Positions 54,099 through 64,000 of a stretch of 64,000 nt of DNA are shown here, piece after piece (within the stretch, counting starts at the first letter, position 1; every line of letters starts with the position of its first letter). Source of the DNA: Brevibacillus sp. DP1.3A (GTDB lineage: Bacteria; Bacillota; Bacilli; Brevibacillales; Brevibacillaceae); NCBI RefSeq assembly GCF_013284245.2, contig NZ_CP085876.1, positions 6,024,001-6,088,000 on the forward strand, given 5' to 3'. Made by a program: the position numbers and the translations under genes. The notes beneath the pieces are model-generated. The model was not told the origin of the DNA. It saw nothing but the letters and a program-made list of their open reading frames with translations, and did no database searches.

Positions 54099-55000
54099 TT
54101 AGTTTCCGCTGTATTTATCCTCAATTTCCTCTCTCGTTTCCTGATAGGTCTCGGTTGTAAGACTCACCAAGTAATTGGTAAGCTCCTCCTTGGACTGTGT
54201 AGCCAACGCTTCTCTTTCTTGCCTTTTCCCAGTAAGGTACTCCCTCGCTTCATTGCCAATCTTGCCACTCGCAGACAAATGCTCGATCGCCATTCCGATG
54301 TTCAAGCTCTCCCGCCAGTTTTTCTCGTACCAGTCCCGGTCGTAAGCATCCACCCATTTTTTGCGGTCGATCAGCACAGCGTCTGCTTCTGTCAAAGCAT
54401 CTCGTTTCCACTGCTCCCACTTCTGGGCAATTTCTTTCGCGCGTTCCAGCTCTTGCTTGAACTGCTCGCGGGCAGCTCAAGAGCTACCCCCTTGAAGCTG
54501 TTCTCCGATTTGGCCACCATGGCGACTGGCACGTCTTTCATGAACACTTCCGTCACGGGCTTCCCGTTCTCCTCATGCGAGATGATGACGTCCACCCGAT
54601 CTAACGCCTCCAGCTCCTGGTCGAAGACGACATTGGTTGATGAAAACACCGTCACAAGTCTGTTGTTCTGGTCCCGTACAACATTGGCTGGCTTCATGAT
54701 GTTTTTCGTGATGATGTCTCCCTTTGACAAGGGAACGATCGTGACTTGATTTTTCAAGCTAGCTTTATCGATGATGTACGAATCATCCGCGTACTTTTTG
54801 GGGATTTCCCTTACTGTCAATTGGTCGGGTTGAATCAGTGCCCGAGATGGAATATCTGCATTTGCTTCGTAAATTTCCACCATTTCGCCCAGTTGCGCAT
54901 TCAAATCCTTGATTTTTTGCAGAAATAGAAAGCCCGCAAGTGCAGCAAGTAGGAACGATAGTACAAGGAAAATAATTGCCCTACGTTTTGATTCCAACAT
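54099..55000 (-). pseudogene. CpaB/RcpC-like Flp pilus assembly protein, frameshifted
   Basis: Starts ATG 55000 (AGAGAGGGAA upstream). N-terminal membrane segment, SAF-like domain (EANADIPSRALIQPDQLTVREIP, LSKGDIITKNIM) and RcpC-like region (VDVIISHEENGKPVTEVFMKDVPVAMVA, GVALELP). Near 54463-54476 the frame breaks: the original frame ends at 54392 in low-sense sequence. The frame displaced by one base reads on as EQFKQELERAKEIAQKWEQW... to the stop at 54099, a long charged helical tail. A single missing base restores one ~300-residue protein. True decay, sequencing error or a frameshift site are all possible. Confidence 0.65.
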
Positions 55001-55096
55001 CAGAAGATTCCCTCTCTTTTTCGAAAAATCCATTCATGTTCAAACTTTGTCGTTTTATTGCTAATATTGCGAATCAGAAAACTTATGAGAAAGGCA

Positions 55097-55552
55097 CTAG
55101 GAATACATGATTATGACCAGCATGAGACTGGTCCCACCCGCAACAAATGGAGCCAACGGGATTTCTCGCCCCAGCTTTATCCTGCCTGTCATTTTGGCGA
55201 TGGCCCACATGGGAAGCACACTGACTCCCGCAAGCAAATACGTAAGCATGAGCACGACCAACCCCGCTTGCCATCCAACCGCTGCGCCAACCAGAGCGAG
55301 CAGCTTAATATCTCCTCCGCCCATTTGGCCGTTGCTGATCACCGCCATAAGTAACGAAATTCCTCCCAGCACAATAACTCCCATCGCATAAGTCAGCCAT
55401 TTCTCTGGATGAAGGTATGCATGCAGAACGAGAAAATATACAATTCCCGGAAGCGTCAGCCAGTCGTAAATGAGACGGCGGCGTAGGTCGGTATACATAG
55501 CGACTGCCATTACGAAAAGAATGGGAATGATGACATACCAAGATAACACCAT
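55097..55552 (-). CDS. A24 prepilin peptidase (TadV/CpaA type)
   Basis: 151 residues, about five or six membrane helices. Aspartic protease motifs: Asp in AMYTDLRRRLIYDWLTLPG (~22) and the GxGD motif MGGGDIKLLA (~77-86). Short CpaA-type prepilin peptidase lacking the methylase domain. AAGGAGG precedes ATG 55552. It would process Flp-type pilins, but the only other Tad gene nearby is the broken cpaB downstream; no pilin, TadA ATPase or TadB/C platform gene is in the window. Confidence 0.88.
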   Translation of the reverse strand: MVLSWYVIIPILFVMAVAMYTDLRRRLIYDWLTLPGIVYFLVLHAYLHPEKWLTYAMGVIVLGGISLLMAVISNGQMGGGDIKLLALVGAAVGWQAGLVVLMLTYLLAGVSVLPMWAIAKMTGRIKLGREIPLAPFVAGGTSLMLVIIMYS

Positions 55553-56080: not shown

Positions 56081-56210
56081 AAATTCACATTTCCCTCCAC
56101 TGTAAACGTTTGGATAACCTCTCTTTTGATGATAGAGTAGAGAGTATGGATAAATCAGATTCGTAAGACAATCTGTTGTATTTTATCGATTTTTGAAGGA
56201 GAGACAGTGG

Positions 56211-57362
56211 ATGAGAGCCTTATTGGTAGACGACGAGCAACTACCCTTGATGCATCTGCAACGATTGCTAGAAAAAGATGTTGGCGGCGTTAAGGTAGTC
56301 GGAGCCTACACCAATCCTCTCGAAGCGATCGACCAAGCAATATCCCTTCAACCAGATGTCGTATTTTTAGATATTAATATGCCGCGCATCAGTGGACTGG
56401 AGATCGGAGAACGTCTGCAAGGAATCGATAACTCCCCAGAGATCGTTTTTGTCACAGGGTACGATAAGTACGCCGTTGATGCTTTTGAGCTGTGCGCGCT
56501 GGATTACATCATGAAGCCCGTACAGCTTCAACGCTTGCAAAAAACAATGGACCGTCTTCGTGAGAGAATCAAGTCCGCGCAAGAAGTCGAGCCTGTTAAA
56601 GAAGAATCAGTCGTTTCCATCCAATGCTTCAATAGTATTTTGTTTCACCAGTCGAATCAGGAGCCACAGGAGATCAAGTGGCGTACGAATAAAGCCCGCG
56701 AGCTGTTTGCGTATTTGTTGCATCACCGCAACAAGATGATCGACAAGGATTCGATTATCGAGCTTTTGTGGCCGGACTATGATGGAAGCAAAGGCGTGAC
56801 TCAGCTATATACGACGATTTACCTCATCCGGCAAACCTTGAAACGCTATGGTCTCCAAACGATATCGATCAACAAAGGCAATTTAGAAGGTGGCTATAAG
56901 CTGACGATCGATTCAGCTGCGATCGATGTGGAAGAATGGGAAAATCGTCTCAAACAGTTACCCCCCCTCTCTCTTGCCAATATGCAAGAGTATGAGCAAG
57001 TGCTCGCGACGTATACGGGCGATTATTTCGGAGACTACGACTATTTGTGGGCAGAGTACGAGCGAGAAAGACTCCGCAGGATGTGGCTGCAGCTCGCCAA
57101 AACAATGAGCAGCTTCTATTTGGGACACGGCAGAGTCCAAGAGGCGATCAACGTCAATCAACGCATTCAGCATTTGCACCCGCTTGAAGAGGACAGCTAC
57201 ATGTTCCTGATGCAGTTGTACGCTTCCTTGGACGATCATGCGGCTGTAGAAGAGCAGTATCAACTCTTGACCTCTCGATGGGAGATTGAACTCGGCTCTG
57301 CTGTAAACGAACATATCACCAAGTGGTATCACATATGGAAACAGGAGACAGAACAAAAGTAG
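56211..57362 (+). CDS. SARP-like response regulator (REC - HTH - BTAD)
   Basis: 383 residues from ATG 56211 (GAAGGAG upstream). REC domain (~1-118) with ALLVDDEQ, phospho-Asp in VVFLDINMP (~54) and the YIMKPV lysine; OmpR-type DNA-binding domain (~150-225, RELFAYLLHHRNKMIDKDSIIELLWP); BTAD helical repeats (~232-380). No histidine kinase is adjacent. It precedes the secreted DUF4832 gene by 32 bases, so it probably shares a transcript with it and may control the neighbouring pel-like cluster. Confidence 0.9.
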   Translation: MRALLVDDEQLPLMHLQRLLEKDVGGVKVVGAYTNPLEAIDQAISLQPDVVFLDINMPRISGLEIGERLQGIDNSPEIVFVTGYDKYAVDAFELCALDYIMKPVQLQRLQKTMDRLRERIKSAQEVEPVKEESVVSIQCFNSILFHQSNQEPQEIKWRTNKARELFAYLLHHRNKMIDKDSIIELLWPDYDGSKGVTQLYTTIYLIRQTLKRYGLQTISINKGNLEGGYKLTIDSAAIDVEEWENRLKQLPPLSLANMQEYEQVLATYTGDYFGDYDYLWAEYERERLRRMWLQLAKTMSSFYLGHGRVQEAINVNQRIQHLHPLEEDSYMFLMQLYASLDDHAAVEEQYQLLTSRWEIELGSAVNEHITKWYHIWKQETEQK

Positions 57363-57394: not shown

Positions 57395-58789
57395 ATGAAG
57401 ATCCGAAGTGGTCTATACAGCGTACTTCTCGCTGCTTTTTGCATTCTACCTTCCTCTGCCGCCGCCTCCAGTTATGGAACGGCCACTTATTCGCCAAAGC
57501 AATCCCAAGACGTACTACAAAACCCTTATATGGGACTGGCTCCCGATTCACGGACGAGTAATAATGAGCAAGAACACACCCTCGTCTATGCCAACCTAAC
57601 CTGGAGGATGCTTGAACCAACCAAAGGAGATTATGCTTTTGATGAGGTCGAAGACGCAATCCGGTTTGAAGAATGGACAGAAAAAGACGTCAAGTTCATC
57701 CTCCGCATCGTTATGGATCTTCCTGATAAAAAATCGGACATGGAGATACCAGATTGGCTATACAACGAGATCGGCGGGGACAATGACCATTTTGATGATG
57801 GCGAGTGGTATCGAAACGACTATGGCAAAGGCTACAGTCCCAACTACAGTAATCCATTGATTATCAAGTACCACAAGGAATTGATTGACGCTCTGGGAGA
57901 GCGCTACAAGGACGATCCCCGCATTGCTTTCATACAGCTAGGAAGCGTCGGTCACTGGGGAGAATGGCACACAGATACTTCTATTCCTTTCCCTGCAACA
58001 GAAATCACGGATCAGTACGTACAACCGTATCTAGATAATTTCCCTGATTCCATGCTACTGATGCGCAGACCACACCCAGTTGCCAAGGAGTACAAACTGG
58101 GGCTGTTTAACGACATGTTTGGCAACAAAGAAGATACAAACAGCTACCTGTCCTGGATACAGAAGGGCTACGTCTCCTGGCTCACCAAAGAAAAAATGCC
58201 TGCCATGCCCGACTTTTGGAAGTATGCGCCAAGCGGCGGAGAATTCTCTCCATCCGACTCCTTGCCAAGCTACTTTACTCGCTCCTCGATTAACCAGGTA
58301 ATCTCACAAGCCAAAGCTTCGCATATTAGCTGGCTTGGCCCGAATACACCCGCACGTTTCGAAAAAGACAGCGATCAACAAGAATATTTGGACCGCTTTT
58401 TAAACACGATTGGCTACCGCTTCTCCATCACCAAAGAGACACATGCCAAAGCAGTCGAGCCCGGAGACAGCCTCGCTGTGACGATGGATTGGCAAAACCG
58501 CGGTGTCGCTCCATTTTACTTCCCGTGGATTCTCGAGCTGTCCCTCGCGGATGAAGACGGTGAGATCGTAACCAAGACCAACACGGACGAAGACATCCGC
58601 AAATGGCTTCCCGGCAAGAAAACCGTCAAGCAAAGCTTGGAAATTCCGGATAATCTTCCTGAAGGAACATACACTCTCTGTGTAGCAATCCTCGATCCCC
58701 ATACAGAAGAGCCGGGTATTCAATTTGCCATGGAAGGCAAACGCTCGGACGGAAGATATACGTTGGGTACGGTCCAAGTACGAGACTGA
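57395..58789 (+). CDS. Secreted DUF4832 glycoside-hydrolase-like protein
   Basis: 464 residues. Signal peptide ending SSAAAS (~26). N-terminal (beta/alpha)8-like region (~40-330) in the style of DUF4874/GH42-type enzymes: PYMGLAPDSR, YANLTWRMLEPTKGDYAFDEVEDAI, IPDWLYNE, IQLGSVGHWGEWHTD with plausible catalytic Glu (GHWGEWH ~190). C-terminal DUF4832 beta-sandwich (~340-464). GGGGGC precedes ATG. Convergent with the pel-like operon; could trim the polysaccharide made there, a role PelA plays in Pseudomonas. The hydrolase activity is inferred. Confidence 0.8.
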   Translation: MKIRSGLYSVLLAAFCILPSSAAASSYGTATYSPKQSQDVLQNPYMGLAPDSRTSNNEQEHTLVYANLTWRMLEPTKGDYAFDEVEDAIRFEEWTEKDVKFILRIVMDLPDKKSDMEIPDWLYNEIGGDNDHFDDGEWYRNDYGKGYSPNYSNPLIIKYHKELIDALGERYKDDPRIAFIQLGSVGHWGEWHTDTSIPFPATEITDQYVQPYLDNFPDSMLLMRRPHPVAKEYKLGLFNDMFGNKEDTNSYLSWIQKGYVSWLTKEKMPAMPDFWKYAPSGGEFSPSDSLPSYFTRSSINQVISQAKASHISWLGPNTPARFEKDSDQQEYLDRFLNTIGYRFSITKETHAKAVEPGDSLAVTMDWQNRGVAPFYFPWILELSLADEDGEIVTKTNTDEDIRKWLPGKKTVKQSLEIPDNLPEGTYTLCVAILDPHTEEPGIQFAMEGKRSDGRYTLGTVQVRD

Positions 58790-58796
58790 TCCATCC

Positions 58797-58847
58797 AAAA
58801 AATCCCTTCCTGACCACCTGTATAGGAGTCAGAAAGGGATTTTTTCT
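58797..58847. terminator. Bidirectional intrinsic terminator
   Basis: 18-base arms with one mismatch: AAAAAATCCCTTCCTGAC (58797-58814) and GTCAGAAAGGGATTTTTT (58828-58845). Ends both the DUF4832 gene and the pel-like operon. Confidence 0.9.
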
Positions 58848-58855
58848 TCTAATCA

Positions 58856-59542
58856 TTATGGTGCATAATCGCCATCGTAGCTTACCAATGATACGTTTTT
58901 CACACCTTCTACCTCTGAAATATCTTGAACAAATGCCGTATTATCTCCTTTGATTTTGACTTCCACGATCAATTCCACCATCTCTTTGTGTACAGTCTTT
59001 GACTTCAAGGCGTATTTCAGTTTGTTCAACTGATATTTAACCCCGTCATTGGCTTGATCGTGATAATTGATAATGAGCAGATAGGCAACATCTTTCATTT
59101 GCCGCTTGGATAATACAACAATGACAGCCGCCACCACCAGCGATCCAAGGACGGAAACCGGGTACACACCCGCTCCCGTCGCAATACCTACCGAGATCGA
59201 CCAAAACATGAAAACAATATCCAACGGGTCTTTGATGGCAGTACGGAACCGCACGATGCTCAACGCGCCAACCATCCCGAGAGAGAGCACGATATTGGTG
59301 CTAATCGTCATGATAATCAGGCAAGTAAGCATCGCCATTGCCACTAGCGTGATGTTAAAGGTATGTGTATAGACGACACCGCGAAACGTTTTTTTGTAAA
59401 TATAGTAGATGAACAAACCTATCAATCCCGACAGCACAAGCCCTATGATGGTATCAATGATCGAGATGCTGGCGAATTGATCTATTTTTAAGACACTTTT
59501 TTTGATGATATCTTGAAAATTAATCGTATTGGTAGTATCCAT
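58856..59542 (-). CDS. DUF4956 membrane protein
   Basis: 228 residues from ATG 59542 (GAGGAGAAG upstream; the frame runs to 59608). Three or four membrane helices (~25-130), then family signature GMVGALSIVRFRTAIKDPLDIVFMFWSISVGIATGAG and a soluble C-terminal ferredoxin-like part (~150-228). DUF4956 proteins are commonly encoded next to VTC-domain proteins and CotH kinases, as here. Biochemical role unknown; the pattern suggests a membrane partner of the VTC polymerase. Last gene of the operon, 22 bases after the VTC gene. Confidence 0.88.
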   Translation of the reverse strand: MDTTNTINFQDIIKKSVLKIDQFASISIIDTIIGLVLSGLIGLFIYYIYKKTFRGVVYTHTFNITLVAMAMLTCLIIMTISTNIVLSLGMVGALSIVRFRTAIKDPLDIVFMFWSISVGIATGAGVYPVSVLGSLVVAAVIVVLSKRQMKDVAYLLIINYHDQANDGVKYQLNKLKYALKSKTVHKEMVELIVEVKIKGDNTAFVQDISEVEGVKNVSLVSYDGDYAP

Positions 59543-59564
59543 AGTTTCCCGACTTCTCCTCACA

Positions 59565-60299
59565 CTAAAGATTATAGTATTTTTTGGTCTCCTCTCTGCA
59601 AATGACATATTTGGAGATAGCCGATCGCTTATTACTCAGGTTTTGTAGCAAATGTCTAATATGAAACGGCAGGAATTGATCGTACTTCACTTCCATGATC
59701 ATCATGGGCTGATGAATAGCTCTGACCATCATGATGTTTTCGTCAAAAATATCGAGTGAATTGACGTTTGCCTTCAAATACTTATCAAACGTAATTCTGA
59801 CATTCCCTTCTCTCACCAAATACGCCTCTCGGACATAATCCGTAATGACGCGAGGCCGAAACAGATGATTTTTGCACGATAAATAAAAATCTCGTAGCAC
59901 AGCACTTTCTGTCTCTCGCAGAAACTCAACATCACCTGCCAAAATCAGTTCATACTCATCTCGTGTAATCGACGCTGATTCTTTGCAAATGTATCCACCG
60001 AACTTGCTCTTTCGCTCCATTTTGATGACTGCATCACTTTTGTTGTAGATGCGAATACGATACTTTTTTCTTTGAAAAACCCCGTAGTTTTTTTCATAGA
60101 GAGCTGTGTCGTGAAAGTCGTCAAAGTACAGGCTACGAATATGATATCCTTCCTCACTCACAGAATAAGGGTCAGGAGTCGCGATCAGACGCAATTTCTG
60201 CCGCAGCGGCTCGTAATTACTCAGCCGAAGATAATACTTCAACTCATGCCGCAATCGCTTGTTGCCGAGCTGGATGCCCGTGCTCTGTATTCCTTTCAT
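59565..60299 (-). CDS. VTC-domain polyphosphate polymerase-like protein
   Basis: 244 residues. Triphosphate-tunnel-type features: RHELKYYL, IRSLYFDD, RKKYRIRIYNKSD, IKMERKSKFGGYICKESASIT, RITFDKYLKA, MIMEVKYDQFLP, and SAISKYVICRE near the end, giving the basic and acidic tunnel residues of VTC4-like catalytic domains. Yeast VTC4 makes polyphosphate from ATP; bacterial single-domain versions are thought to act likewise but are little studied. The ATG overlaps the cotH stop (60296-60299), implying coupled translation. Confidence 0.88.
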   Translation of the reverse strand: MKGIQSTGIQLGNKRLRHELKYYLRLSNYEPLRQKLRLIATPDPYSVSEEGYHIRSLYFDDFHDTALYEKNYGVFQRKKYRIRIYNKSDAVIKMERKSKFGGYICKESASITRDEYELILAGDVEFLRETESAVLRDFYLSCKNHLFRPRVITDYVREAYLVREGNVRITFDKYLKANVNSLDIFDENIMMVRAIHQPMMIMEVKYDQFLPFHIRHLLQNLSNKRSAISKYVICREETKKYYNL

Positions 60300-62020
60300 T
60301 TCAATACGAACTCCTTCACCCCATGATAAAGCGCATCCTCGGACTCTACCCTGTCAAATGCCGTCTGTGTGTTCCCTTTGCTGTCCCGAACAATCACGCG
60401 CCAGAAAAAGCGACCTTTACCCGGATCGTTTATGGTGTATTGAACCCCTGTCAGCCCCTTGGCCTGCGCGTGTATCTTCGTAAACGCAGGATCGTAACTG
60501 ACGGCAAAGTCGTAAGTCAGATCGTCACCTTGCAGATCATAGGAATGGTCCCAGGCAAAAATGAGCTTATCTCCTTCTTTTCTTGGCTCCCCCATAAAAA
60601 AGGGCATCGGATTCTCTTGGCGTTCATAGTACCTCTTTTTGTTACGCTCCGGTTCACCAGATAGAAGTGCTTGCTCATTGTGAAAATAGGAGACATCCAA
60701 CGGTAAATTATATAAATCAGGTTGTTGCAGCACATATTTACTCACAATCGGATAATAGCTCTTCAAGTATTTTTCCGTTTGCTCCTTCGTAATGATCTTG
60801 CTGATTTCCTCAACCTTTTCGTTAAGCGTTTTGATGTTTTCAGGATCCTTAAAGATGCGGCGATGCAAATTCGACACCCAGTAGTCGGAAATGCCAAACT
60901 GCCATTGTCCTAGCCCTTTTTCTGGGCTTCGCTTGAGCTCTTCTTCAAAAAATCCCCACGATGCGTCGTAGTCCCACGGTAGGAAATACCACTTGTTGGA
61001 GTTGCTAGGGCTGTACAAGTAAAAATTATGAACAGCCGTGTCGTGATTCCCCATCAACAGGTTGGATGCCAGCCATGTATAGTAGTTCTCCCGATCAAAA
61101 TGCTTGTCCAAAAAGTCTTGCGTATTGATCGCAGGATTGTGAAGATCGTCCAGCATCGAAATGAGCTTTTCATGGTTCTCGCTGCCTTTGATCTCCAAAA
61201 TTTTATCAAAGGCTTTCTTATCGTAGGTAGGATCTGTTGCCAGCTTGAGTTGTTCCTCGTAACGGTGGAACTCGAAATCAATTGCCTTGTATAAATTTCC
61301 GTTTCGGTCCAATCCGTGCGCCTGCAAAAATGTTTTGTTCGGCTGTTCAATTTGAGTGAACAAACCGTAATCAACAAAGTCTCGATCCGGATTTTTTTTT
61401 GTCAAATCCTTGATTTTCACTTGAACGAACTGCGTCCGCAAACTGGTCATATTGGGCATTTGCTCAAAATAATCAAAGCTAAGCTTTTGTCGAACACGCG
61501 TCATGTCAGACTTGTGCTTGCTTACGTTGATATTGCGCTGATCCCGCCAGTATCCGGCGCTGTCGAACAAACGGATTTTGTACGATTTTTGTTCCGCTCT
61601 TCTGCTCGATTCCCCCCGCAGCTCAATCGTTCCGTTCGCTCTCGTCTCGCTAAAACCAAAGTACCCCTGGGTTGGCCCCTCCACCGTCCCTTCCTGCATA
61701 ATGACTTTGGCCTGGAGATCTTCTCCCTTTTCATTCCGTCCGCTAGGAGCTAGATTGAGTTCCGTAAAGGTGGTCGTTTTCAATTTCGAATTTTCTTCGT
61801 TGACTACCGTCACATATAAATGGACGATGCTCCCATCAACATCCTGATCGTATACGCTTCTATTCTCAATCAGATCCTCGTTCATCTGCTGAGTTGACGC
61901 CACCTGACTCGTTGCTGGCGGGTTGTCTGACACTGGCTGTTCAGGCGCATCCTGTGTACAACCAGTCGATACAACTCCTAATGCTACGAGTAGGCTCAGT
62001 ATGAATCGTTTTTTCTTCAA
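60296..62020 (-). CDS. CotH-family protein kinase lipoprotein
   Basis: 574 residues from TTG 62020 (GGGGAGGACTTAGG upstream; an ATG at 62077 overlaps pelG and lacks a site). Lipoprotein signal KKKRFILSLLVALGVVSTGC (Cys ~20), linker, then CotH domain (~60-480): IELRGESSRR, KSYKIRLFD, YFEQMPNMTSLRTQFVQVKI, and the kinase-site region NLLMGNHDTAVHNFYLY and LPWDYDASWG. The last ~90 residues form a fibronectin-like beta-domain (FAWDHSYDLQGDDLTYDFAVSYD). Bacillus CotH phosphorylates spore-coat proteins; here the kinase is anchored outside the membrane beside Pel proteins, target unknown. Confidence 0.88.
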   Translation of the reverse strand: MKKKRFILSLLVALGVVSTGCTQDAPEQPVSDNPPATSQVASTQQMNEDLIENRSVYDQDVDGSIVHLYVTVVNEENSKLKTTTFTELNLAPSGRNEKGEDLQAKVIMQEGTVEGPTQGYFGFSETRANGTIELRGESSRRAEQKSYKIRLFDSAGYWRDQRNINVSKHKSDMTRVRQKLSFDYFEQMPNMTSLRTQFVQVKIKDLTKKNPDRDFVDYGLFTQIEQPNKTFLQAHGLDRNGNLYKAIDFEFHRYEEQLKLATDPTYDKKAFDKILEIKGSENHEKLISMLDDLHNPAINTQDFLDKHFDRENYYTWLASNLLMGNHDTAVHNFYLYSPSNSNKWYFLPWDYDASWGFFEEELKRSPEKGLGQWQFGISDYWVSNLHRRIFKDPENIKTLNEKVEEISKIITKEQTEKYLKSYYPIVSKYVLQQPDLYNLPLDVSYFHNEQALLSGEPERNKKRYYERQENPMPFFMGEPRKEGDKLIFAWDHSYDLQGDDLTYDFAVSYDPAFTKIHAQAKGLTGVQYTINDPGKGRFFWRVIVRDSKGNTQTAFDRVESEDALYHGVKEFVLK

Positions 62021-62051
62021 CCTAAGTCCTCCCCAATCTATACGTAACCAT

Positions 62052-63452
62052 CTATTCCATTCGCTTTCCTTTGACAAAGAGCGGCTGTAGGCAGTAGGTG
62101 TAATAATCGATATTTTTCAAGTAATAGATCAACCTGCCGAGACCGGCTACCAGTGCAAGAAACGAAGCAATAAAAAATGAAAAACCGTAGTTATGAAGGG
62201 GCAACATCGCTATGGTGATGACAACGGTACTGACGAGAAATAAGGTTGTCACCGTAAGCGCTCCCTTCCGATCGTCAAAATAGAGCAACATCAGCACGAT
62301 CACAAACATAACAGCGTACAAATACCCCGCGATGACCAAGATGTTGTACCTCTCCATTTGATCGGACGTAAAACCGATATGCGGAAGCAGCGTAATGCCT
62401 AGAGCCAGTGCAACAAAGGAAAAGAACAGCTGCACCTCCATCATGAAGCTGAGCTCCTGCATCAACGTTTGAACCATATCTGTTTTCGCCCGCTTGATAT
62501 CCTGCACCGAGCCTGTGCCCAATATCGTTCCGTAATACGCTCGGTACTTCTCGTAAAAAGCAGTCTCCACAGATACCACAAACATGACCATGGTAGGCAA
62601 TATGCTCAAGGAAGCGTAGAACGCTGGCACGTCGTAAAAAGGCGCAATCACGTAAGTATCCGCCACTACCTCCTGCAACGGGCTCCCCAGCCAGTAAATA
62701 AAATGGTGCACATAAAAACCGAGAGAACAAAAAAGACCCACACCAAGCAGACTTGGGTACTTTTTCACGTACTTCAGGAAATCAAAATAATTCCTTGCCC
62801 GCTTCGGGAAAAAACTCTCCAGATGAAGCATAGATAAGACAATCATCGTAAAAAAGCCGAGATCCAAAGAAATCAGCATCGCGATTCCTTTTTCCAGCTC
62901 AGTCAGATTCAACAGCAGAAACGCAGCCAGAAGCGTAACGGCAACAGCAGCCAAATACCCACGAATGATGCGCATATAATCCTTTAATGCAGACAAGTAG
63001 GCGGATTGTAGCCATACGACGATCAGTTCCACAAAAAGAAGGTAGGCTACGAGCTTAAAGCCAGACGGCAGAGGCGCGAGCCAGTAAAATGCACCGCCGA
63101 GAATTCCCCCCAAACCCAGACAAACAGCGATAACTCCATACAAAGACGCAATGATGTCGTTATACTCACGCAAGTAAATTTTGTCTGCAATATAGCGAGA
63201 AATGACCATGGAAAAGCCGCAGGTAATTAACAGCGAAAACACGAATGCATAAACGACAGCAGCTAAAAAAGACATCCTTTCCAAATAGCTGACATTCAAT
63301 TGAAGAAGGATTTGCTGTAGCACCGTAATCATTACCATACAAATCAGCATCGGTCCGACTGTGACCAGCGAAGAAAATGCATACGCCTTCACACTGGACA
63401 AATACCCTTTATTTCGAAACATTTTCTTCAGTTCAAAGCCAATGCCCGCCAT
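62052..63452 (-). CDS. pelG: PelG-like polysaccharide export membrane protein
   Basis: 466 residues, 12 or so membrane helices. The N-terminus MAGIGFELKKMF is the PelG signature, followed by YLSSVKAYAFSSLVTVGPMLICM and RYIADKIYLREYNDIIASLYG. PelG is a MOP-superfamily-related transporter that carries Pel exopolysaccharide across the membrane in Pseudomonas. It starts five bases after pelF. Confidence 0.9.
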   Translation of the reverse strand: MAGIGFELKKMFRNKGYLSSVKAYAFSSLVTVGPMLICMVMITVLQQILLQLNVSYLERMSFLAAVVYAFVFSLLITCGFSMVISRYIADKIYLREYNDIIASLYGVIAVCLGLGGILGGAFYWLAPLPSGFKLVAYLLFVELIVVWLQSAYLSALKDYMRIIRGYLAAVAVTLLAAFLLLNLTELEKGIAMLISLDLGFFTMIVLSMLHLESFFPKRARNYFDFLKYVKKYPSLLGVGLFCSLGFYVHHFIYWLGSPLQEVVADTYVIAPFYDVPAFYASLSILPTMVMFVVSVETAFYEKYRAYYGTILGTGSVQDIKRAKTDMVQTLMQELSFMMEVQLFFSFVALALGITLLPHIGFTSDQMERYNILVIAGYLYAVMFVIVLMLLYFDDRKGALTVTTLFLVSTVVITIAMLPLHNYGFSFFIASFLALVAGLGRLIYYLKNIDYYTYCLQPLFVKGKRME

Positions 63453-63457
63453 GTTTC

Positions 63458-64000
63458 TTACACCTCGTATTTCCGATACATATTGCGATATCCCGCCAAG
63501 AAATTCTCATGTGTGTAAATAGCCGATACTCTTTGGAAGCCACATCTGCCCATGCGCCGTCTCATGGGCTCGTTTTGGCATAACGTAATGATCGCTTGGG
63601 CAATTTGAGTAAAATGCATGACGGGTACCGTTATCCCTGCGTTGCCATAGTTGTCACCATTGCCGTATAACAATTCCCGACAGCTTCCCACGTCCGTTGT
63701 GACGAAGGGCTTTCTGCATGCCATTCCTTCCAAAATAACGAGCGGTTGTCCTTCACTGATGCTGGTCAAAACAAGCATGTCCATTTTTCCGAGATACTCT
63801 TTCACATTGACCGCACCCGTAAACGTAACATCCTCCAGCTGCAGGCTTTCGACCAATTGCAGGCATTCTGTGTAGTACTCCCCATCTTCATCCGTCGGGC
63901 CCATGATGACAAAGCGTGCGTGTGGCACTTGTTCCTTGACGAGCCCGAAGCTGTGCAGCATTGTTTTAATATCCTTGATGGGTACCACACGGACGACAGC
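63458..64000 (-). CDS. pelF: PelF-like glycosyltransferase, C-terminal part (5' end outside window)
   Basis: 181 codons to the right edge; the frame reads AVVRVVPIKDIKTM at the edge, so the start lies beyond 64000. GT4 glycosyltransferase second domain: RVVPIKDIKT (PelF-typical), FVIMGPTDEDGEYY, VTFTGAVNVKEYLGKMDMLVLTS and the EX7E motif in SEGQPLVILEGMACRKPFV, TTDVGSCREL. PelF uses a UDP-sugar (UDP-GlcNAc in Pseudomonas) to build the Pel chain. First visible gene of the operon. Confidence 0.9.
   Translation of the reverse strand, partial: AVVRVVPIKDIKTMLHSFGLVKEQVPHARFVIMGPTDEDGEYYTECLQLVESLQLEDVTFTGAVNVKEYLGKMDMLVLTSISEGQPLVILEGMACRKPFVTTDVGSCRELLYGNGDNYGNAGITVPVMHFTQIAQAIITLCQNEPMRRRMGRCGFQRVSAIYTHENFLAGYRNMYRKYEV

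Follow-up and report, generated by a model that had tools for sequence, protein, structure and literature searches.

A near-obligate VTC-DUF4956 gene pair, often joined by CotH, stands behind the Pel exporter gene of Brevibacillus sp. DP1.3A and mostly occurs apart from Pel

Why does an operon for the exopolysaccharide Pel end in genes for a CotH-type kinase-like protein, a VTC-type polyphosphate polymerase domain protein and a DUF4956 membrane protein, and do these genes serve one system with Pel? The question arises at positions 58,856 to 64,000 of a 64,000-nucleotide stretch of Brevibacillus sp. DP1.3A (contig NZ_CP085876.1, positions 6,024,001 to 6,088,000; this whole stretch, which we analysed, is called the window). 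On its minus strand lie the 3' part of pelF, a glycosyltransferase gene (63458..64000; whole protein PF11997, E 3.9e-81, and NCBIfam PelF above its cut-off) whose remainder extends past the window end to L002:10864 in the extended locus L002; pelG, for the membrane exporter (62052..63452; PF16933, E 2.6e-144); cotH, for a protein with a hydrophobic N-terminal segment, a CotH kinase domain and a C-terminal FN3-like domain (60296..62020; PF08757, E 2.8e-53); a gene for the soluble, 244-residue VTC protein (59565..60299; PF09359, E 2.5e-35); and a gene for the DUF4956 protein, with a helical membrane part and a C-terminal ACT-like domain (58856..59542; PF16316, E 5.8e-12). An earlier note on this DNA had proposed that the five genes form a single transcription unit and a single system, in which a kinase and polyphosphate modify a surface partner or the polymer itself.

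We found that VTC and DUF4956 form a near-obligate pair. In a draw of 348 genomes of the phylum, each family matched in 53 and the two sets were identical; among 14 control genomes, both families matched in the same 3, including an actinomycete and an archaeon. DUF4956 lay within 3 kb on the same strand for 59 of the 63 VTC matches in the phylum; of the remaining four, one sat at the beginning of a contig, DUF4956 lying at the edge of a different one, one was a partial match, and two were pieces of a single gene. In a second collection of 80 named loci with 81 VTC genes, 80 of these genes had DUF4956 within 2.5 kb, and for the last the distance was 3.9 kb, with another gene intervening. Distance matrices over 82 loci correlated with r of 0.87 for VTC and DUF4956, and with 0.68 and 0.73 for CotH against VTC and DUF4956, respectively (shuffles no higher than 0.18). 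Within the genus, VTC was present in 17 of 26 genomes. No earlier report of the pairing was found in the open-licence literature, searched as main text and including excerpts of PMC8250860 and PMC10657179.

Judged by its neighbourhoods, this pair makes up a module of its own, often together with CotH, that is mostly independent of Pel. PelG matched in 14 of the 348 phylum genomes (12 over the cut-off) and in 3 of the 53 genomes with VTC, leaving 50 without it, and VTC adjoins PelG in two; conversely, 9 of the 12 phylum genomes with PelG over the cut-off had no VTC. Among the 46 phylum VTC loci flanked by 4.5 kb or more on each side, 25 carried the VTC-DUF4956-CotH triad with no PelG near and 2 carried it with PelG. 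The corresponding numbers for the 53 named loci with full flanks were 22 and 25, a Pel share that is not a census because the loci were collected by means of an alignment of VTC proteins similar to the window's. These counts contradict a printed statement, in an excerpt of PMC12345266, that no syntenic cotH/VTC/DUF4956 set was found outside the Pel locus.

Outside Pel loci, gene neighbourhoods indicate that the exported third partner is exchangeable: of 61 VTC loci, 35 had CotH near, 17 had a carbohydrate-binding protein of the Cthe_2159 type and 8 had an LRR/lamin-tail protein (counts overlap), and 5 of the 61 had none of these. A response regulator and histidine kinase pair was near in 27 of the 61. 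Another common form of the module, seen for example at L052-L056, L066, L086 and L098, has VTC-DUF4956 followed by a Cthe_2159-type lipoprotein gene, with an OmpR-type regulator and a histidine kinase flanking it. CotH often follows DUF4956 at non-Pel loci, and the overlap of cotH with the VTC gene, which had been taken as a sign of joint action, is accordingly not a general feature.

Where the module does accompany Pel, its composition and order are uniform. Every one of the 28 VTC genes linked to Pel in the named loci had CotH and DUF4956 nearby, and in 27 cases CotH lay upstream of VTC; both genes were likewise present at 15 of 15 genus loci with PelG over the cut-off, so the conserved pelFG-cotH-VTC-DUF4956 neighbourhood that the earlier note had suggested seeking does exist. 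The grouping is not due to chance, as the VTC-PelG distance was 1,780-1,905 bases in all 15 of these genomes (26 searched). An open-reading-frame-based pass had yielded Pel loci seemingly lacking CotH, which a six-frame search removed; several of them were PelG-CotH fusions. In a quick tree of VTC, 10 changes of the Pel label were required, at least 4 of them forced by well-supported branches. One of these 15 genus loci is broken (L212, in genome G356), with a stop inside pelG and shortened VTC and DUF4956 genes; the same genome also has an intact, separate VTC-DUF4956-CotH set (L213). Two consecutive CotH genes lie between PelG and VTC at L112, L114, L117, L162, L166 and L077, and the second CotH of such loci is only distantly similar to the window CotH (13-18% for several).

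A direct connection between the module and Pel came from gene fusions. PelG and CotH share a single open frame of 1,033-1,093 codons at 11 loci (seven named Paenibacillus or Psychrobacillus loci, Claveliimonas bilis and three genomes of the window's genus), with both Pfam families above their cut-offs in 11 of 11. A quick PelG tree of 42 rows gave two origins of fusion, both forced by well-supported branches, one in a clade of ten and the other in C. bilis alone. Fusion couples CotH to the Pel exporter, and these proteins appear, as far as we found, to be the first direct physical tie between that exporter and a kinase-like accessory; no prior report of a PelG-CotH fusion was found in the open-licence literature, although the supplementary operon figures of PMC7112168, which lie outside that scope, may draw fusions. 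The fusions speak for the idea of one system, but a Pel system as such is not supported, given that VTC and DUF4956 occur mostly without Pel and that there are Pel genomes without VTC. The fusions also point to where the substrate of CotH should be sought.

Each of the 11 fusion linkers has a lipobox-like cysteine behind a hydrophobic stretch; a 19-residue hydropathy window with a threshold of 1.6 flagged the segment in only 8 of the 11 because the stretch is short and resembles a signal peptide. We take PelG to have 12 membrane helices and a cytosolic C-terminus, so that the extra segment would bring CotH to the outside. Among separate CotH proteins, an N-terminal hydrophobic segment was found in 29 of 30 that are linked to Pel (lipobox-like motif in 17) and in 51 of 57 that are not (motif in 16), counts that exclude proteins outside 400-700 residues and in which the six lacking a segment include several that begin at the edge of a contig. 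The segment of the window CotH ends in the lipobox-like VVSTGC. We infer from these features that CotH is placed outside the cell. The protein has the CotH domain and fold, matching PDB 5jd9 by sequence (E 2.1e-15) and by structure (E 4.5e-17, with many FN3 domains among the lower matches), and keeps the conserved Asp/Glu residues of the family: D369 is aspartate in 125 of 125 rows reaching the position and D346 in 124 of 126. These figures come from alignment columns, as regular-expression motifs matched only 36 and 40 of 82 rows and were too strict. CotH and VTC each have a single match in the source genome.

We then considered whether the VTC protein could make polyphosphate. A Pfam scan of its 244 residues found no second family and no SPX domain. 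A profile of its relatives matched the yeast Vtc4 structure 3g3q (E 1.4e-20), and the profile was needed for this, since a PDB search with the window sequence alone returned a single weak, unrelated match (E 0.48). R81, R83 and E203 align with R264, R266 and E426 of Vtc4 and are conserved in 158, 159 and 156 of the 159 rows, respectively, and further catalytic-site residues are equally constant. An excerpt of PMC9911596 gives these three Vtc4 residues as the set mutated to inactivate the enzyme, and describes basic residues lining the channel of the yeast complex. The window protein thus combines a VTC domain with the catalytic residues of Vtc4, which places it in the family. Neither PPK1 nor PPK2 was found in the source genome, so that VTC is the only polyphosphate-making family detected there of the three sought.

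For DUF4956, the alignment shows an R-[FY]-R motif (R120-[FY]121-R122) in 154 of 155 rows, the remaining row having a gap. The structural model (mean predicted local distance difference test score, pLDDT, 84.3) has five helices and the ACT-like domain. Fold matches cover the C-terminal domain only: that of MgtC (2lqj) scored a Foldseek E of 2.2e-4 and a Z of 9.7, with many ferredoxin-like folds scoring equally. The protein also matched the NCBIfam MgtC/SapB family at E 1.1e-5, although its 25 bits are far under the cut-off of 214, and a profile search of the PDB gave nothing better than E 0.56.

Within the window, the operon itself is as the earlier note described it, with five co-strand genes, gaps of 5, 31, -4 and 22 bases and one terminator; these gaps require that cotH start at the TTG at 62020, which has GGAGGA just upstream, and DUF4956 at the ATG at 59542, a choice backed by the family alignment. 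The terminator is a hairpin at ~58797..58845, bidirectional by folding energy: -29.8 kcal/mol (z -6.7) on the operon strand and -23.1 kcal/mol (z -5.3) on the other, so that it can also serve the convergent DUF4832 gene, whose end it adjoins. A simple terminator scan did not list this hairpin, which was given by the folding analysis; nor did the scan list anything terminator-like in the pelG-cotH interval on the operon strand. Promoter-like matches over the region numbered 14, fewer than the shuffle mean of 21.5, and are therefore uninformative. The gene layout thus supports a single transcription unit from pelF to DUF4956.

This arrangement is already published. Excerpts of PMC7112168 (2020) describe cotH, a polyphosphate polymerase gene, DUF4956 and DUF4832 as adjoining pelDEADAFG in streptococci and clostridia, note a different fourth accessory gene in bifidobacteria, and propose a regulatory role for CotH. 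According to excerpts of PMC12345266 (2025), all four accessory genes (SIR_1591-1594) were deleted in Streptococcus intermedius; in one medium, loss of the DUF4956 or CotH homologue lowered aggregation by more than half, and the DUF4956 protein was already noted to have MgtC-like and ACT domains. Since these two papers describe the same genes, the pel-cotH-VTC-DUF4956 system is a known architecture, and what is new here is the wider module and the fusions, not the gene order of the window.

The published locus has the same genes as ours, with cotH-VTC-DUF4956 right behind pelG in the same order and DUF4832 nearby. In the excerpts it is described from streptococci, clostridia and bifidobacteria, whereas here it stands in a genus of Bacilli, with intact-looking epimerase motifs in PelD, an RxxD near the PelD end and a CheY-like gene ahead of pelD; the DUF4832 gene is convergent here rather than in line. 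The eukaryotic VTC complex (Vtc1/Vtc3/Vtc4; excerpt of PMC9911596) shares with the bacterial pair a homologous catalytic domain with the same key residues and a strictly linked membrane partner with conserved basic residues. In contrast to that complex, the bacterial pair showed neither an SPX domain nor a Vtc1-type membrane region in the Pfam scan, divides the catalytic and membrane parts between two genes, and has an MgtC/ACT-like membrane partner. The window CotH has the domain, fold and conserved acidic residues of Bacillus cereus CotH (PDB 5jd9/5jda); unlike that protein, it is predicted to be exported, has an FN3-like domain and is fused to PelG in relatives. In Clostridium perfringens NELoc-2, excerpts of PMC2879425 give the order VTC, a 226-residue membrane protein, a resolvase, VTC, a 222-residue membrane protein and CotH, with no pel reported and the small membrane proteins called tubulin/FtsZ. 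By size (222-226 residues) and by place beside VTC and CotH, those two proteins, CP4_0461 and CP4_0464, may be misnamed DUF4956 proteins.

Taken together, we propose that the cytosolic VTC protein would make polyphosphate from ATP and that the DUF4956 membrane protein would carry the growing chain across the membrane, the two acting as one unit that would be the bacterial equivalent, in two proteins, of the VTC complex of eukaryotes. Exported partners would use or present the product of this unit. In the window, the unit would have been recruited to a complete Pel operon, where CotH, exported and tethered to the membrane at the PelG exit, would act as a kinase-like enzyme and modify a surface partner or the Pel polymer. 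We consider the whole of this reading to stand at about even chances. If it is true, bacterial and archaeal VTC proteins with their near-obligate membrane partner would be a second prokaryotic way to make and move polyphosphate, and DUF4956, unstudied and named in only 3 of 5.39 million open-licence papers, would gain a testable role.

Several observations weigh against the proposal. PPK1 was commoner with VTC, in 16 of 53 VTC genomes versus 36 of 295 others; there is no mutual exclusion, and VTC as a mere replacement for PPK1 was rejected on these numbers. The R-F-R motif of DUF4956 sits where the model of the membrane part is least certain (pLDDT about 63-77), so that a pore-lining role for it is no more than a possibility, and with its C-terminal ACT-like domain the protein resembles MgtC rather than Vtc1. 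Two genus genomes, G365 and G348, have a VTC match without any DUF4956 match; the G348 match is truncated, and the VTC gene of G365 comes right after a CheY-like gene at a locus (L214) without pel, CotH or DUF4956 that looks like a remnant after deletion of the operon's middle and end. In the excerpts on S. intermedius, the DUF4956 mutant had more Pel and the CotH mutant less, and no change, in aggregation or otherwise, is reported for the VTC deletion (PMC12345266). A strict VTC-DUF4956-CotH chain does not predict these results, though a missing VTC phenotype in one assay does not exclude dependence on VTC.

These opposite shifts, with none reported for VTC, speak for regulation, in which CotH would phosphorylate a protein of the Pel complex and tune Pel output while VTC and DUF4956 would serve phosphate metabolism or act as MgtC-like sensors, not as an exporter. 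This account is close to suggestions in the excerpts of PMC7112168 and PMC12345266, and draws further support from the ACT-like domain of DUF4956, from its sub-cut-off MgtC/SapB match and from the fusions, which put CotH on the Pel complex. We nevertheless regard regulation as doubtful, because VTC conserves its active-site residues nearly throughout and does not separate from DUF4956, and because the module is mostly found without Pel. The signal segments would moreover put CotH on the outer side of the membrane, where ATP should be scarce. This lack of ATP is also why a narrower form of our own proposal suggests itself, in which VTC and DUF4956 would export polyphosphate that feeds exported CotH, and extracellular phosphorylation would run on polyphosphate as the phosphate donor, sited at the PelG exit by operon order, lipobox tether or fusion, with the fused protein perhaps cut at its internal lipobox into an exporter and a lipoprotein; we consider this specific chain quite improbable.

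Exported polyphosphate could otherwise be a matrix polyanion, binding Ca2+ or cationic Pel, with CotH or the alternative exported partners docking or modifying it. Such a role fits the partial deacetylation of Pel by PelADA (excerpt of PMC7112168) and the exchangeable third gene, and yet the literature searched held no polyphosphate in any Pel matrix, the Pel of S. intermedius is rich in N-acetylgalactosamine and so carries little charge, and no aggregation change is reported for its VTC deletion (excerpts of PMC12345266). A matrix role therefore seems unlikely to us, although somewhat less so than the polyphosphate-fed kinase. Least probable of all is that a phosphate module landed behind pel and is co-transcribed without any shared work. 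Module and Pel are indeed more often apart than together, and the several gains or losses of the Pel label on the VTC tree would suit a passenger. A passenger would, however, hardly be kept in all 15 genus Pel loci in so uniform a gene order, and it is disfavoured already by the two independent PelG-CotH fusions, as well as by the deletion phenotypes in S. intermedius (excerpts of PMC12345266).

Past position 64000, the pel operon is complete in the source genome (6.66 Mb), running on one strand from a CheY-like gene through pelD, pelE, pelADA and pelF to pelG; the pelD/E/A-like genes that the earlier note had proposed to look for ahead of pelF are thus present. PelADA matched DUF2194 (E 1.7e-212), and pelE, without a Pfam or NCBIfam match, was named by position and by similarity to genes in the same place at other loci. 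PelD has an N-terminal epimerase domain, a membrane region and GAF, and its epimerase domain has both the GxxGxxG and the YxxxK motif in place, taken in their generally known meanings. An R-E-A-D (RxxD) stretch lies near the PelD end, and there is no Pfam match to the PelD GGDEF domain, as is likewise stated for B. cereus PelD in an excerpt of PMC7112168. The same source describes the epimerase domain of Brevibacillus PelD as seemingly active, with residues altered in streptococci and clostridia. The Pel operon is probably controlled by cyclic di-GMP.

The response-regulator receiver gene in front (PF00072, E 1.2e-29) overlaps the pelD start by 4 bases, with a hairpin and U tract upstream of it (-38.8 kcal/mol, z -8.4). 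Two similar receiver genes stand in tandem before pelD, at L002:15940-16359 and L002:16742-17113, with this hairpin and U tract between them; both are present in 4 of the 15 genus Pel loci, and the remaining loci have one or none near. A riboswitch ahead of pel was rejected, as no Rfam match was found over L002 4000-19000.

On the other side of the operon, the convergent DUF4832 gene (57395..58789, plus strand; PF16116, E 1.3e-42; Glyco_hydro_42, E 4.9e-5) encodes a glycoside-hydrolase-like protein of the same family as SIR_1591 of S. intermedius, an active hydrolase according to an excerpt of PMC12345266. Next to it on the same strand is a gene for a response regulator with winged-helix and BTAD domains (56193..57362; PF00072, PF03704, PF00486), assigned to the locus by neighbourhood only. 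DUF4832 is convergent in 8 of the 15 genus Pel loci, and the response regulator adjoins it in the same 8. Further along, at 54099-55552 on the minus strand, open reading frames resembling pilus-assembly genes were recognised by eye, for a CpaB-like and a prepilin-peptidase-like protein.

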